From positions 1-41,956 of the forward strand of contig JARGFZ010000024.1 in NCBI GenBank assembly GCA_029210965.1: 41,956 bases of DNA, written 5' to 3'. Positions 203 through 23,071 of this stretch are shown here, one piece after another. The stretch comes from a bacterium (GTDB lineage: Bacteria; BMS3Abin14). The position numbers were made by a program, and so were the translations under genes. A model generated the notes under the pieces. That model did not search any database. It saw only the letters and a program-made list of their open reading frames with translations, and was not told the origin of the DNA. Numbering within the stretch: the first letter of the stretch is position 1; the number at the start of each line of letters is the position of its first letter.

Positions 203-222
203 GACTCTATTATAATTGAGCC

Positions 223-450
223 ATGAATAAAAAAGTTCCGGATTTCAGGTCCGCGGAAGAGGAAAAGGCCTGCTGGGCGGAAGCTGGTTCGATTGATGAA
301 GCCGGCATCAGGGAGGACCGCGCCAGACCCCTTTTTTTATCCTCCTGCCGTATTTATTTTGGTTTTTCTCATCTTTTTCTGAAGAAAAGTCCAAAAGTCG
401 CTAAAATAATAAGAAAAATAGCCGCGATCTCATTTTTCCCACCAATATAG
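223..450 (+). pseudogene. Possible N-terminal scrap of a CopG/BrnA-type antitoxin
   Basis: The first 20-25 codons read NKKVPDFRSAEEEKACW, which resembles the N-terminus of small CopG/BrnA-like antitoxins (KK-P-F-S-EEE--FW). The remainder is hydrophobic and basic, does not continue the family pattern, and stops at residue 75. There is no convincing ribosome binding site and no toxin gene beside it. The resemblance is by eye over a short stretch, so this is either a decayed antitoxin or chance. Confidence 0.25.
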
Positions 451-844
451 AGGATCAGGGCTGATCGGGTGAGCCATCAGCGGCACAGCAGGCCGCCTTA
501 CCTGTGTAAGTGTTTGATATTAAAACGCTTTAATCGTGCCACCATTGGCCCATGTGTACAAATATAATGTATTTTATGTAAAATACCGTATACTGTACTT
601 TACTTGCCCACCCCCGCCATGCCTCTTTCCCATCCTAACCATATGAAATAAAAGGGAATATTAACAGACTCCCGTCCCATGTCGGGATAGTTCCCGGGTG
701 GTCTGTCCCTGCCGGATGTGTAATTTATGGCACAAGGCTTGCTGGCTACCTGTTATGCCCGATCAGTAACCCCCGGTTCCGGAAGGCTGGGCCGTGGGGA
801 TCCCGAACAATGGGGGAATCAGTCACAGGTATCGGAGGCAAGTA
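451..844 (+). promoter_or_regulatory. Control region of aclBA
   Basis: No gene was found here. The left part is AT-rich. At 664-706 there is a nested inverted repeat: ACAGAC (664-669) pairs with GTCTGT (701-706), enclosing TCCCG (670-674) and CGGGA (683-687). Its centre lies about 75 bp upstream of the start predicted from the sigma-54 promoter at 728-743, a usual distance for an enhancer-binding-protein site. That role is inferred from position and symmetry only. Confidence 0.45.
728..743 (+). promoter_or_regulatory. Sigma-54 (-24/-12) promoter of aclBA
   Basis: TGGCAC (728-733) and TTGCT (739-743) match the sigma-54 consensus TGGCAC-N5-TTGCW. The invariant GG (729-730) and GC (741-742) are exactly 10 nt apart. 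Transcription would begin near 754, giving a leader of about 90 nt before the aclB ATG at 845. Such promoters need an AAA+ activator, and none is encoded in this window. Confidence 0.75.
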
Positions 845-2056
845 ATGGGTAAAGTAGTAGAAGGGCACAGCATGAACCTGATGTCCAAGTGGGGAATTAC
901 AACTCCCAGGTATGTGGTGTCAAACTCCCTGGAAGAGTTTGACACTATGAGTGAGAAACACCCGTGGCTGGAGGACTCCCGCCTGGTGGTCAAAGCCCAC
1001 GAAACCATCGGTGGCCGCGGCCTCCTGGGCCTTGTTAAAATGTGCACCGATCTCAATTCCACCAGAGATGCCATTGAGGATATCCTTTCCTACGACCGGG
1101 ACTCGATCACAATTAACCAGGTGATCGTGGAGGAAAACGTCCCACACAGCCGGAAAAGAGAGTTCTACGCCTCCGTTATTTCCCGTAGGGAGGGAGTGGA
1201 GCTTCTTCTCAGTCCCAAGGGCGGCGTCAACGTTGAAAAAAACTGGAATAGTGTACGTAGCCTGAAAATTTCAACCGGTGCCGCAATTGATACAAGGGCT
1301 CTCGAAGAGTTTGTAGGCCAGGCGGGGTTCGATTACAGGTTCCGCAGCCTTCTCGGGGAGTTTCTGCAGCGGCTGCTCACCATGTTTGATGGAGAGGATG
1401 CTACCTACCTGGAAATCAACCCTTTTACAATCCTCCGGGGGTGCAAGAAGGTCGTTGCCCTGGACGCGGTACTCGACCTGGATGAGTCTGCCAGGTTCAG
1501 GCACCCGGATTGGAAATTCGGGTTCTCATCCGGCTTCGGCCGCTCCATGAGCCATGCGGAGAGGAGCATCCAGGAGATAGATGAGCAGGTAAAAGGTTCA
1601 GTGAAGTTCATCGAGCTTGATGGTGATACAGCCCTGCTTCCGGCAGGGGGCGGAGCCAGTGTGTTCCTGGCCGATGCTGTCGTTCGGGCCGGCGGAACCC
1701 TTGCCAACTACGCTGAATATTCAGGAGACCCCCCCGATTGGGCCGTAGCGGCTCTCACCGAACGCGTCTGTGCAATCAAGGGGATCAAGCGGATCATTAT
1801 CGGCGGAGCCATTGCCAACTTCACCGACGTCAAGAAGACCTTTGCCGGAATAATCCAGGGACTGCGCAAGGTGCGCAGCTGTGGTCAGCTGAACGAATCT
1901 GTTTCCATCTGGGTTCGCAGGGGAGGCCCCAACGAGGTTGAAGCGCTCCGGGAAATGGGGAAGATAAAAGACGAAGGGTTCAGGATCCAGGTGTTCGATC
2001 GAAAAACGGCCCTCACCGATATCGTGGACATGGCTTTTGCCGAGGAAGTGGTATGA
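845..2056 (+). CDS. aclB: ATP-citrate lyase beta subunit (ATP-grasp)
   Basis: This is the smaller subunit of two-subunit ATP-citrate lyase, which cleaves citrate with ATP and CoA to acetyl-CoA and oxaloacetate, a key step of the reductive TCA cycle. The N-terminal half is an ATP-grasp domain (VVKAHETIGGRGLLGLVK near residue 50). The C-terminal half is succinyl-CoA-synthetase-like, with LPAGGGASVFLADAV and a conserved NYAEYSGDPP. The ATG at 845 is chosen because GGAGG (834-838) lies 6 nt upstream; an in-frame GTG at 794 adds 17 unlikely residues. That gives 403 aa, close to the roughly 400 of Chlorobium-type AclB. The stop overlaps the start of aclA by 4 nt, so the two are co-translated. Confidence 0.93.
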   Translation: MGKVVEGHSMNLMSKWGITTPRYVVSNSLEEFDTMSEKHPWLEDSRLVVKAHETIGGRGLLGLVKMCTDLNSTRDAIEDILSYDRDSITINQVIVEENVPHSRKREFYASVISRREGVELLLSPKGGVNVEKNWNSVRSLKISTGAAIDTRALEEFVGQAGFDYRFRSLLGEFLQRLLTMFDGEDATYLEINPFTILRGCKKVVALDAVLDLDESARFRHPDWKFGFSSGFGRSMSHAERSIQEIDEQVKGSVKFIELDGDTALLPAGGGASVFLADAVVRAGGTLANYAEYSGDPPDWAVAALTERVCAIKGIKRIIIGGAIANFTDVKKTFAGIIQGLRKVRSCGQLNESVSIWVRRGGPNEVEALREMGKIKDEGFRIQVFDRKTALTDIVDMAFAEEVV

Positions 2057-3885
2057 GCATTTTGACCCATAAGGACGATCAGGTCCTTATACAAGGTGGC
2101 CCTGCCGGGGTGAACGCTGCCCGGTGCATGGCCGAGTTCCGTTATCTCATCGGAGAACCTGTCAACGTACCTGCTTTCGTATATCCCCCCGATGCGGGGA
2201 AAACGGTGGAGGTACCCTATGGAACCCAATATGTGTCCACTCCAGTATACGGCACGGTGACCGAGGCGGTTAAAATGCATCCGGAGATCAACACCAGCCT
2301 GGTGTACGTAGGTGCCGACCGCGCCGGTGATGCGGCGGTGGACGCATTGGATGCGCCCAACATAAGGCTGGTGAGCATGATCACCGAAAGCCTGCCGGAA
2401 AAAGATGCCAGGCTTCTGCTCAAGAAGGCCCGGGATACGGGTAAGATCTTTAACGGACCCTCCTCCATCGGGATCCTTTCCGGCGGGGAGAGCCGCCTTG
2501 GAGTCGTAGGCGGGAACTATGAGAACCTGGTTCTGGGAGAACTGTACAAGTCGGGGTCTTTCGGTATCGTTACCAAGTCCGGTGGGATGCTCAACGAGAT
2601 CATGTGGATTGTGAGCATGCACGGGGACGGTGTGAGTACAGCAGTGGGCCTGGGGGGCGATTCCTTTCCAGGTATGACCTTTGTGGATTGCCTGGAATTG
2701 TTTGAGAAGGATCAAGGGACCCACGCGGTCATCATGGTTGGGGAAACAGGTGGTACCCTGGAGGAGGAAGCAGCCTGCTGGTATGCCAGTGAACCGAGGC
2801 GTATAAAGATCATCGGGATGGTGTCCGGGTTCTGCCAGGAGGTCCTTCCCAAAGGGATGAAATTCGGCCATGCGGGTGCCAAGGCGGGTCCCAAGGGCGA
2901 AGGTGCGGCCGAAGATAAGAGGAAGGCCTTTGAGCATGCAGGCTTTCTCGTGCCTGAATCCTTCAACGAAATGGGCCGGATGATCGCCGATATCCATAAA
3001 GACCTGATCAACTCAGGAAAGGTCAAGGTAAAGAAGAGGCGGTCCGCTGAAAAGGTACGCCCTCTGCCCAAGACTGTTGGGCAAGCGGTGTCTGACGGCG
3101 ATGTCCTGGCCGAGCACATGATCACCTCTACCATCTGTGATGAACGGGGCGAGGAGCCCCTTTACTCCGGTTACCCGGCATCGGAACTGGCCGCCAAGGG
3201 TTATCAGATGGAGCACGTGGTGGGCCTTCTCTGGCTTGGCCGGCTGCTCACCAGTCAGGAAGCTGCGGTGGTGAGGAGGATACTAATACTCACCGCGGAT
3301 CACGGACCTTGTGTCAGCGGAGCTCTGACCACGATCATTGCCTCTTCGGCTGGCATCCCCCTGGCCCAGTCCGTGGCGGCGGGGCTCCTCATGATCGGCC
3401 CGCGCTTCGGCGGTGCTGTTACCGATGCGTCAAAATATTTCAAGTACGGCGTCGATGAGAACATGGAGGTTGAAGAGTTCCTGGCCCACATGAAGGAACA
3501 TGTGGGACCGGTGCCGGGTATCGGCCACAGGGTCAAAAGTCTGAGCAACCCCGACAAAAGGGTCCAGAGCCTTTTAGAGTGCGTCCGGGAGCAGGGTTTT
3601 CCAACGCCTGTTCTGGACTTTGCTCTTGCGGTAGAAAAAAGGACTACACGGAAAAAAGAGAACCTTATTCTCAACGTGGACGGGGCCATGGGTGCCGTCC
3701 TCACCGATATGGGCTTCCCCCCGGAGGCCCTCAACGGGTTCTTTGTTCTGGCAAGAACGATCGGATTCACGGGACACTGGCTGGATCAGAAAAGGCAGGG
3801 CAGCAGACTGATACGGATGTTCAAGTGGCTGGTGCGCTACGCGACCCCAGGAAGGAGAACGGTACCGCCACTCGAAAGCCTTTAG
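2053..3885 (+). CDS. aclA: ATP-citrate lyase alpha subunit (with citrate synthase-like domain)
   Basis: This is the large subunit, 610 aa, the usual length. Residues 1-320 are the succinyl-CoA-synthetase-alpha-like part, with a CoA-binding fold (KSGGMLNEIMW). The phosphorylated active-site histidine is His273 in FGHAGAKAG. Residues about 350-610 form the citrate-synthase-like domain, with GIGHRVKS and the C-terminal TIGFTGHWLDQKR, which cleaves citryl-CoA. It starts with ATGA overlapping the aclB stop. No terminator hairpin was seen after it. Both subunits look intact, so a functional citrate-cleaving enzyme is likely. Whether it runs CO2 fixation depends on 2-oxoglutarate:ferredoxin oxidoreductase and fumarate reductase genes, which are not in the window. 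Confidence 0.95.
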   Translation: MSILTHKDDQVLIQGGPAGVNAARCMAEFRYLIGEPVNVPAFVYPPDAGKTVEVPYGTQYVSTPVYGTVTEAVKMHPEINTSLVYVGADRAGDAAVDALDAPNIRLVSMITESLPEKDARLLLKKARDTGKIFNGPSSIGILSGGESRLGVVGGNYENLVLGELYKSGSFGIVTKSGGMLNEIMWIVSMHGDGVSTAVGLGGDSFPGMTFVDCLELFEKDQGTHAVIMVGETGGTLEEEAACWYASEPRRIKIIGMVSGFCQEVLPKGMKFGHAGAKAGPKGEGAAEDKRKAFEHAGFLVPESFNEMGRMIADIHKDLINSGKVKVKKRRSAEKVRPLPKTVGQAVSDGDVLAEHMITSTICDERGEEPLYSGYPASELAAKGYQMEHVVGLLWLGRLLTSQEAAVVRRILILTADHGPCVSGALTTIIASSAGIPLAQSVAAGLLMIGPRFGGAVTDASKYFKYGVDENMEVEEFLAHMKEHVGPVPGIGHRVKSLSNPDKRVQSLLECVREQGFPTPVLDFALAVEKRTTRKKENLILNVDGAMGAVLTDMGFPPEALNGFFVLARTIGFTGHWLDQKRQGSRLIRMFKWLVRYATPGRRTVPPLESL

Positions 3886-4329
3886 AAAGCAGGGGAAAAT
3901 TAATCAGACACGGAGACACGGAGACACGGAGACACGGAGACGCGGAGGGCGTGAGAGGGAGAGTGGGGGTGGGGGAGAAAAGGCTCGTGTATCTATGTAT
4001 CTACGTATCCAGGTATCAAAGTAACACCCTAAACCTGCCGCGCGAAAGCGTCCAACGTGCCGAAGGTAAAACCTCCAGGATCGTCCTTTCGGACAACCAC
4101 ACCGCACGCAGGTGCGATTCCCGGAATGACGTTGGTGGAGGTTGCCCCAAGCTAAGATTTCCTCCGCCTGCCTCCCTGTCTCAACGTCTCCGTGGTGAAA
4201 AAACATCGCCTTTTCTTTAGTCACGGGCCTTTCCCCAGACTGCCGGTTTCCTCTGCGTTAAAACAAGGTCGCATTAATAGCAATCGTGTTTTCCCCTTCC
4301 ACCTTCCACCTTCCACATTCTACCTTTAA
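3886..4329. repeat. Gap filled with short tandem arrays and dispersed repeats
   Basis: No gene was found here. 3907-3946 holds five copies of an 8-bp unit (GACACGGA, the last altered). 3989-4020 holds four 8-bp units beginning GTATC. 4297-4324 holds four 7-bp units (CTTCCAC, last ATTCTAC). 4121-4142 is the reverse complement of 16925-16946 and belongs to a dispersed family. 4189-4216 is a short copy of the GTGGTGAAAAACATCGCC element seen at 6471 and 35382. Confidence 0.7.
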
Positions 4330-21331: not shown

Positions 21332-21784
21332 TTGAGTGAGGAATTTTTCAGAAACATGCTATCCGCTCGCTATTTGGCGAAGGGTGATCGGCAATCGCAG
21401 ATAGGCAACTATGAAAAATCCTTGGAGTATTATCATGCATCCTTGGAAATTGACGATGATCCAATGATCCCTAATTACTGTATCGCTCATTCCTTAGCCA
21501 AGCTTGGCAGATATGAGGAATCCAGGACCTGCATCAACAAAAGCCTGGAAAAATACCGAAAGTTCGTTAGTGAAGGAGGGGCTCTACAAGATTTAAAAGC
21601 CGAAGCGACCAGTGGCTGCTGTGTTTCTCCTCCTCTCCTTTTCTCCTCTTCCCCTTTTCAGGGAGTCCTCCGGGGAGCGGCGTTTAACCGCCTATGTGCG
21701 ACATCGTGCGTGTGCATCCCCGCAGCCCTTCCCCCTCCCCCATCCCATGTCCTTCAGGCTTGGCGCTCAGAGCATCCTGGATGA
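21332..21784 (+). CDS. Possible small TPR protein, 3' end degraded
   Basis: From a TTG start (GGGG 4-5 nt upstream) the first 75-80 residues form two TPR-like helix pairs (YLAKGDRQSQIGNYEKSLEYY, IAHSLAKLGRYEESRTCINKSL). After residue about 90 the frame runs into CT-rich repeat sequence and then 101 bp into the antisense of moaA. The tail (SPPLLFSSSPFQG) therefore looks non-native. Probably a truncated TPR gene, or a real short one whose end has been replaced by a repeat. Confidence 0.4.
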   Translation: MSEEFFRNMLSARYLAKGDRQSQIGNYEKSLEYYHASLEIDDDPMIPNYCIAHSLAKLGRYEESRTCINKSLEKYRKFVSEGGALQDLKAEATSGCCVSPPLLFSSSPFQGVLRGAAFNRLCATSCVCIPAALPPPPSHVLQAWRSEHPG

Positions 21785-22697
21785 CGGTCAGGATCTGGTC
21801 GTCGCTGGCCCCTGATCGCAGAGGTTCGAGAATGTCGGTCTCGTTATCGGAGAAAAGGCAGGTCCGGATCTTACCGTCTGCGGTGATCCGGATCCGGTTG
21901 CAATCGATGCAAAAGTGCTGGGAAACCGGTGTGATGAACCCTATCGTGCCTTTAAAGCCTGGTATCTGATAGCGTACAGCAGGTCCGGATCCTTTGCCTC
22001 TGCCCAACGGTACGAGGGGACCGTGCACCGTTTCGAGTCGTCCGATGGCTTCAGCTGCTGTGACGACCTTCTCCGGTCCCCAGAACCCCTCGGGGCTCAT
22101 GGGCATGAACTCGATGAACCTGACTTCCAGTTCCCGGTCGCTGGTCAGGGCAACGAACTGTTCCAGTTCGTCATCGTTAAAACCCCTCATAAGGACCACG
22201 TTGATCTTAACCGGAGAAAGGCCCTCTATTTGGGCCGTTATCAGGCCCTCCATGACAAGATGAGGTCCTCTCTCAATGCCGTTCCCGTTGGGAGAGGTGA
22301 TCCATTGAAAGCGGTCTTCGTTCAGGGTGTCGAGGCTGACGTTGACCCTCGTAAGGCCTGCGTTACTCAGGGGATGGGCCAGTTCGCTCAGAAGCATCCC
22401 GTTGGTAGTCAGGCTTATATCGTCGATACCGTGAATATCAGAAAGGGAGCTGACGAGCCTGTCGAGATGTTTGCGTACCAACGGTTCTCCACCGGTGATG
22501 CGTACACTGGAAACGCCTCTGGGGGCGAGGAGACCCGCGAGCCGGACGATCTCCTCGTAGGAGATGATCTTATCGTGGGACAGGGAAACGAACCCGTCGG
22601 AGGGCGCGCAATAACGACATCTCAGATTGCACCTGTCGGTGACGGAGACACGCATGTACCTGATGGGTCTACCCTGGCTGTCAGTCAACTGCTCCAC
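21684..22697 (-). CDS. moaA: GTP 3',8-cyclase (molybdenum cofactor step 1)
   Basis: A radical-SAM enzyme that, with MoaC, makes cyclic pyranopterin monophosphate from GTP. It is 337 aa. The N-terminal SAM cluster motif CNLRCRYC has Cys23, Cys27 and Cys30. The C-terminal second cluster is in FCIDCNRIRITADGKIRTCLF, and the protein ends in the characteristic Gly-Gly (SHIGG). It is preceded on the same strand by a Moco riboswitch and terminator (22883-23022). moaC lies 4.6 kb away and has no such leader. Confidence 0.96.
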   Translation of the reverse strand: MEQLTDSQGRPIRYMRVSVTDRCNLRCRYCAPSDGFVSLSHDKIISYEEIVRLAGLLAPRGVSSVRITGGEPLVRKHLDRLVSSLSDIHGIDDISLTTNGMLLSELAHPLSNAGLTRVNVSLDTLNEDRFQWITSPNGNGIERGPHLVMEGLITAQIEGLSPVKINVVLMRGFNDDELEQFVALTSDRELEVRFIEFMPMSPEGFWGPEKVVTAAEAIGRLETVHGPLVPLGRGKGSGPAVRYQIPGFKGTIGFITPVSQHFCIDCNRIRITADGKIRTCLFSDNETDILEPLRSGASDDQILTVIQDALSAKPEGHGMGEGEGLRGCTRTMSHIGG

Positions 22698-22882: not shown

Positions 22883-23022
22883 GGACCCGCAGAAAGGGGC
22901 CCGTTTTTTTCGCAGGCTTCTCCTTTCCAAATACGGGAGGCCCGGTCGTTTCCAACCAGACCCATCGGCCGGCCGCCTTGTACGCTTTGCATGCGCCGTC
23001 AGGCGGGACGGCTCGGAGAGCG
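22883..23022 (-). promoter_or_regulatory. Molybdenum-cofactor riboswitch with terminator
   Basis: On the minus strand upstream of moaA the segment 22940-22922 reads CCTCCCGTATTTGGAAAGG, the highly conserved part of the Moco RNA motif; the Escherichia coli moaA leader has nearly the same string. Other elements are a GCTCTCCGAGCC 5' side (23021-23010), a short hairpin GGTCTGG-TTGGAAACG-ACCGGGCC, and a GAAGCCTGCGA 3' side (22920-22910). A terminator hairpin follows (GGGCCC 22902-22897 with GGGTCC 22888-22883, one G-U pair) with a T-rich tail. This suggests cofactor-dependent transcription termination ahead of moaA. Aptamer limits are approximate. Confidence 0.8.
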
Positions 23023-23071
23023 TTTTTCAAATGTAGTACACGTTTATAGCGGGTAAGTTACGAAAAAGAAA

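Follow-up and report, generated by a model that had tools for sequence, protein, structure and literature searches.

Sigma-54 is the one sigma factor with a strict activator requirement. The pyruvate formate-lyase operons DVU2272 and DVU2824 of Desulfovibrio have sigma-54 promoters, and the Desulfovibrio sigma-54 consensus, tGGcacg followed by tTGCt, is akin to the motif obtained there by 5'-RNA-seq and agrees with the site described below (PMC4641369). In a broad survey of sigma-54 regulons the word 'citrate' is absent from the main text (PMC12316311). No description of control of ATP-citrate lyase by sigma-54 (RpoN) was found in the open-access literature searched, which is weak evidence for novelty.

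The locus compared here with these systems lies in a 41,956-nt stretch of DNA, the window, in which a putative sigma-54 promoter precedes the ATP-citrate lyase genes aclBA. Its features are the following:

Positions 492 to 4303, no strand assigned: block with the promoter region and aclBA, absent at the equivalent place in the congener G007, to which its flanks align.
Positions 563 to 568, plus strand: TATAAT in the sequence, possibly the -10 box of a sigma-70 promoter, with no good -35 box.
Positions 578 to 603, no strand assigned: AT-rich palindrome GTAAAATACCGTATACTGTACTTTAC with 11 of 13 pairs, a candidate enhancer site or operator.
Positions 664 to 706, no strand assigned: nested inverted repeat, not distinguishable from chance with confidence.
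Positions 728 to 743, plus strand: putative sigma-54 -24/-12 promoter TGGCACAAGGCTTGCT, exact consensus; this motif also precedes ccmE, both in this genome and in G008.
Positions 845 to 2056, plus strand: aclB, ATP-citrate lyase small subunit, 403 aa (Pfam PF16114, PF24948, PF08442).
Positions 2053 to 3885, plus strand: aclA, ATP-citrate lyase large subunit, 610 aa (Pfam PF00285, PF00549).

Both subunits of ATP-citrate lyase are encoded with their expected domains, Citrate_bind and ATP-grasp in AclB and CoA-ligase and the citrate synthase C-terminal domain in AclA, and the genes are adjacent, aclA overlapping aclB by 4 bases. The start of aclB is marked by a GGAGG at 834-838 before the ATG at 845, and the N-terminus is collinear with that of Nitrospirota AclB. 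Reductive TCA steps are plausible in this bacterium because the genome has several 2-oxoacid:ferredoxin oxidoreductases, one of them adjoining succinyl-CoA synthetase genes. A search for sigma-54 sites at these oxidoreductase loci gave one weak match only.

The original prediction had placed a TGGCAC-N5-TTGCT element with the invariant GG and GC at 10-nt spacing about 100 bp before aclB, and the sequence is exactly as described: on the plus strand the GG is at 729-730 and the GC at 741-742, with 10 nt between them. Compared with the extended consensus TGGCAC(G)-N4-TTGC(A/T), the site at 728-743 matches throughout but for one less conserved position, where it has an A in place of the G. It begins 117 bp before the aclB ATG, and the predicted transcript start at ca. 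753-754 would give a leader of ca. 91 nt. The exact pattern occurs once in the window, as TGGCACAAGGCTTGCT. With an approximate scoring matrix, this site scored 18.1 of a maximum of 19.3, while the next best site in the window scored 12.0. When the upstream 300 bp were shuffled 3000 times, no shuffle reached 18.1 (best 14.0), and the top score in twenty Markov copies of the window was 16.8. Genome-wide the exact pattern was barely enriched, with 6 occurrences against 4 for a reversed-pattern control, and the one-mismatch pattern gave 82 against 92. With so little enrichment the motif by itself proves little, and the weight is carried by position, a perfect sense-strand match ca. 100 bp upstream of a start codon. 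The -24/-12 site at 728-743 is real, and a chance origin is unlikely.

A positive control is provided by TGGCACGGGGCTTGCT, also one of the six exact matches, which was found 79 bp before a ccmE-like gene that is followed by a ccmF-like gene (both named by reading). In G008, which belongs to another genus of the same family, TGGCACAAACCTTGCT is located 58 bp before the start of the ccmE match, and the orthologue is 73% identical. The flanks of the site have largely diverged between the two genomes. Because the ccmE site is kept in G008, sigma-54 promoters of this form seem to be conserved in the family; in the remaining family members scanned, the ccmE homologues are more distant (at most 61% identity) and such a site is absent. 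The conserved ccmE site is at 1067 in locus L117 and at 236 in locus L174, and inspection by eye showed a GTGCA-N5-TGCRC element above it in both genomes. This element was not seen by eye upstream of aclB, so the aclB and ccmE promoters probably do not share an activator. The exact match in locus L115 is inside a long reading frame and is probably due to chance. The site TGGCAAGGGTCTTGCT is present in identical form three times in G000 (contigs C14, C29 and C65), twice at contig ends, which suggests a repeated element.

The genome has the machinery for such a promoter. A single rpoN is present (482 aa; PF04552, 204 bits), adjoining genes that resemble lptB, hpf and ptsN. The sigma-54 activator domain gave 17 matches in the genome, and 15 scanned proteins combine it with a Fis-type HTH, for a genome total of about 15 enhancer-binding proteins. 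Most of these carry a receiver domain as in response regulators, one carries a GAF domain and two carry FHA domains. The activator L011 has ferredoxin and iron-hydrogenase-like domains and is possibly a redox sensor; sigma-54-like sites were observed near it on contig C62. An activator gene adjacent to aclBA, which the original prediction had proposed to look for, was not found anywhere in the 41,956-nt window.

We consider it likely that aclBA is transcribed from the sigma-54 promoter at 728-743. The sigma-54 form of RNA polymerase would wait on this site as a closed complex, and an AAA+ enhancer-binding protein, with its gene at another place in the genome, would bind upstream, most plausibly at 578-603. 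ATP hydrolysis by this activator would then open the complex, giving a transcript with the ca. 91-nt leader and aclBA. The enzyme would thus probably be made in response to a signal acting through the activator and not constitutively. An RNA element in the leader was considered and rejected, as the sole Rfam match in the window is elsewhere: a minus-strand molybdenum cofactor riboswitch at 22904-23030 that precedes a moaA-like gene (21684-22697). A repeat-element origin of region 560-844 was likewise rejected, as this region is single copy in the genome.

Two upstream elements were weighed as the activator site. The palindrome at 578-603 has 11 of 13 pairs, a level reached in 15 of 2000 shuffles of region 301-844. 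It is built of three related 9-mers, at 569, 578 and 595, the consensus of which was derived from this very site, and for this reason counting them gives no independent test; no further copies of the palindrome were found in the fetched loci. Activator sites for sigma-54 promoters are usually at least 100 bp upstream (PMC4641369), and the position of the palindrome 125-150 bp above the -24 element fits this distance. The original prediction had assigned the enhancer-binding protein to the nested inverted repeat at 664-706, which now appears unlikely. The repeat has symmetric arms above the promoter (ACAGAC at 664-669 and GTCTGT at 701-706, with inner TCCCG/CGGGA), and by a looser test an equally stable 43-mer was found in just 4% of shuffled regions. 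Paired arms and folding are nevertheless near chance: of shuffled 124-bp regions, 55% have perfect paired arms of the same length, and the RNA fold comes with a z of -1.04, 25 of 200 shuffles being as stable. Moreover, the repeat is only 22-64 bp above the -24 element, and its outer arms span 43 bp, beyond one usual activator dimer site, which is narrower. A role of the outer motif ACAGAC-GTCTGT as a shared element was set aside; it occurs at 5 places genome-wide against 1 in the control, of which the aclB context was examined. The palindrome appears to be the better supported candidate.

The palindrome at 578-603 could also be the operator of a sigma-70 promoter with the TATAAT at 563-568 as its -10 box. 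If such a promoter, starting near 575 and controlled by a repressor at 578-603, drove aclBA, the sigma-54 match would be due to chance or of minor importance. The TATAAT is exact and the palindrome follows immediately downstream, where an operator would be expected. However, a good -35 box is absent, the consensus scan did not list this promoter, the leader would be 270 nt, and the sigma-54 match would become a rare accident. We regard this explanation as improbable. Two promoters, a basal sigma-70 and an inducible sigma-54 promoter, would accommodate both elements, which are present and in order; this arrangement, which overlaps with transcription from the sigma-54 promoter as proposed above, is rather unlikely given the weak sigma-70 element.

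The relatives show how far this promoter extends. A set of 80 aclB loci was fetched from Nitrospirota (a few labelled otherwise), ca. 78 of them with at least 100 bp upstream. These Nitrospirota loci encode the closest ATP-citrate lyase found, with AclB 52-56% and AclA ca. 61-65% identical and the same gene order. Unlike the present locus, the ca. 78 Nitrospirota upstream regions gave no sigma-54 site up to 300 bp from aclB; their best score, 7.8, is matched by 7.9 for the opposite strand. All 12 genomes of this set that were tested have rpoN. Within the host's family, G005 also has ATP-citrate lyase genes in the order aclB-aclA, but its AclB is only 33-37% identical, its aclBA is directly behind an isocitrate dehydrogenase-like gene, and the best upstream sigma-54 score is 7.0. 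Among 12 genomes of the host's phylum this aclBA is in this genome only, and no close relative carrying it was found in these or among the fetched aclB loci.

In the alignment with the congener G007, window positions 222-491 and 4304 onward flank ca. 210-230 bp of unrelated sequence, which shows that the block at 492-4303 is absent from G007; in another congener, G006, ca. 100 bp separate rpe from the next gene. Because the block is missing in a congener, the promoter and aclBA were probably acquired together by this lineage; the promoter would have entered with the genes or been assembled there. Gain of the block in this lineage is a simpler reading than loss in the congeners. Contig contamination was rejected, as the neighboring rpe protein shares 93% and 86% identity with its counterparts in the two congeners, and a foreign base composition of aclBA was rejected since their GC3 of 0.65-0.67 matches that of the neighbors. 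Short tandem GGAGACAC-like repeats are present between aclA and rpe (3886-4303), inside the block. Window positions 223-450 hold the remnant of a CopG-like antitoxin-type gene (named by eye); in G007 a longer open frame occupies the equivalent place. At the contig end, positions 1-76 are a repeat, of which this genome has a 98.7% identical copy in locus L130 and G008 has a 91% copy in front of ccmE.

Taken together, the proposed sigma-54 control of aclBA is well supported by the motif, by rpoN and the activators in the genome and by the ccmE control, whereas the conservation of the -24/-12 elements in relatives that keep aclBA, a feature that supports such a promoter but does not strictly define it, is absent in the ca. 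78 Nitrospirota loci (AclB ca. 55% identical). This non-conservation limits the generality of the promoter and does not refute it, because the Nitrospirota are distant and the block seems to have been gained in this lineage specifically. As far as seen, the aclBA sigma-54 promoter would be specific to this lineage and not general to ATP-citrate lyase operons. A more specific proposal is that this citrate-cleaving enzyme of the reductive TCA cycle, gained along with its own sigma-54 promoter, is turned on and off by an activator that senses a signal, possibly L011, so that citrate cleavage follows redox state; this is very unlikely. If the promoter operates as proposed, an enzyme of autotrophy, central to carbon fixation, would be made only on demand, via the sigma factor with the strict activator requirement, and two metabolic genes obtained by transfer would have been wired into host signaling through their promoter.

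Among described systems, pyruvate formate-lyase of Desulfovibrio comes nearest (PMC4641369). There the enzyme is a different one, its activator is encoded by a neighboring gene and the promoter is kept across genomes (PMC4641369); neither of the latter two points holds at the present locus. In both cases an enzyme of carbon metabolism is behind a -24/-12 site, and the AT-rich palindromic activator site predicted for DVU2275 (PMC4641369) may have a counterpart in the AT-rich palindrome of the present locus. The best reading is that the sigma-54 mechanism is a known one and that ATP-citrate lyase is a new target for it.
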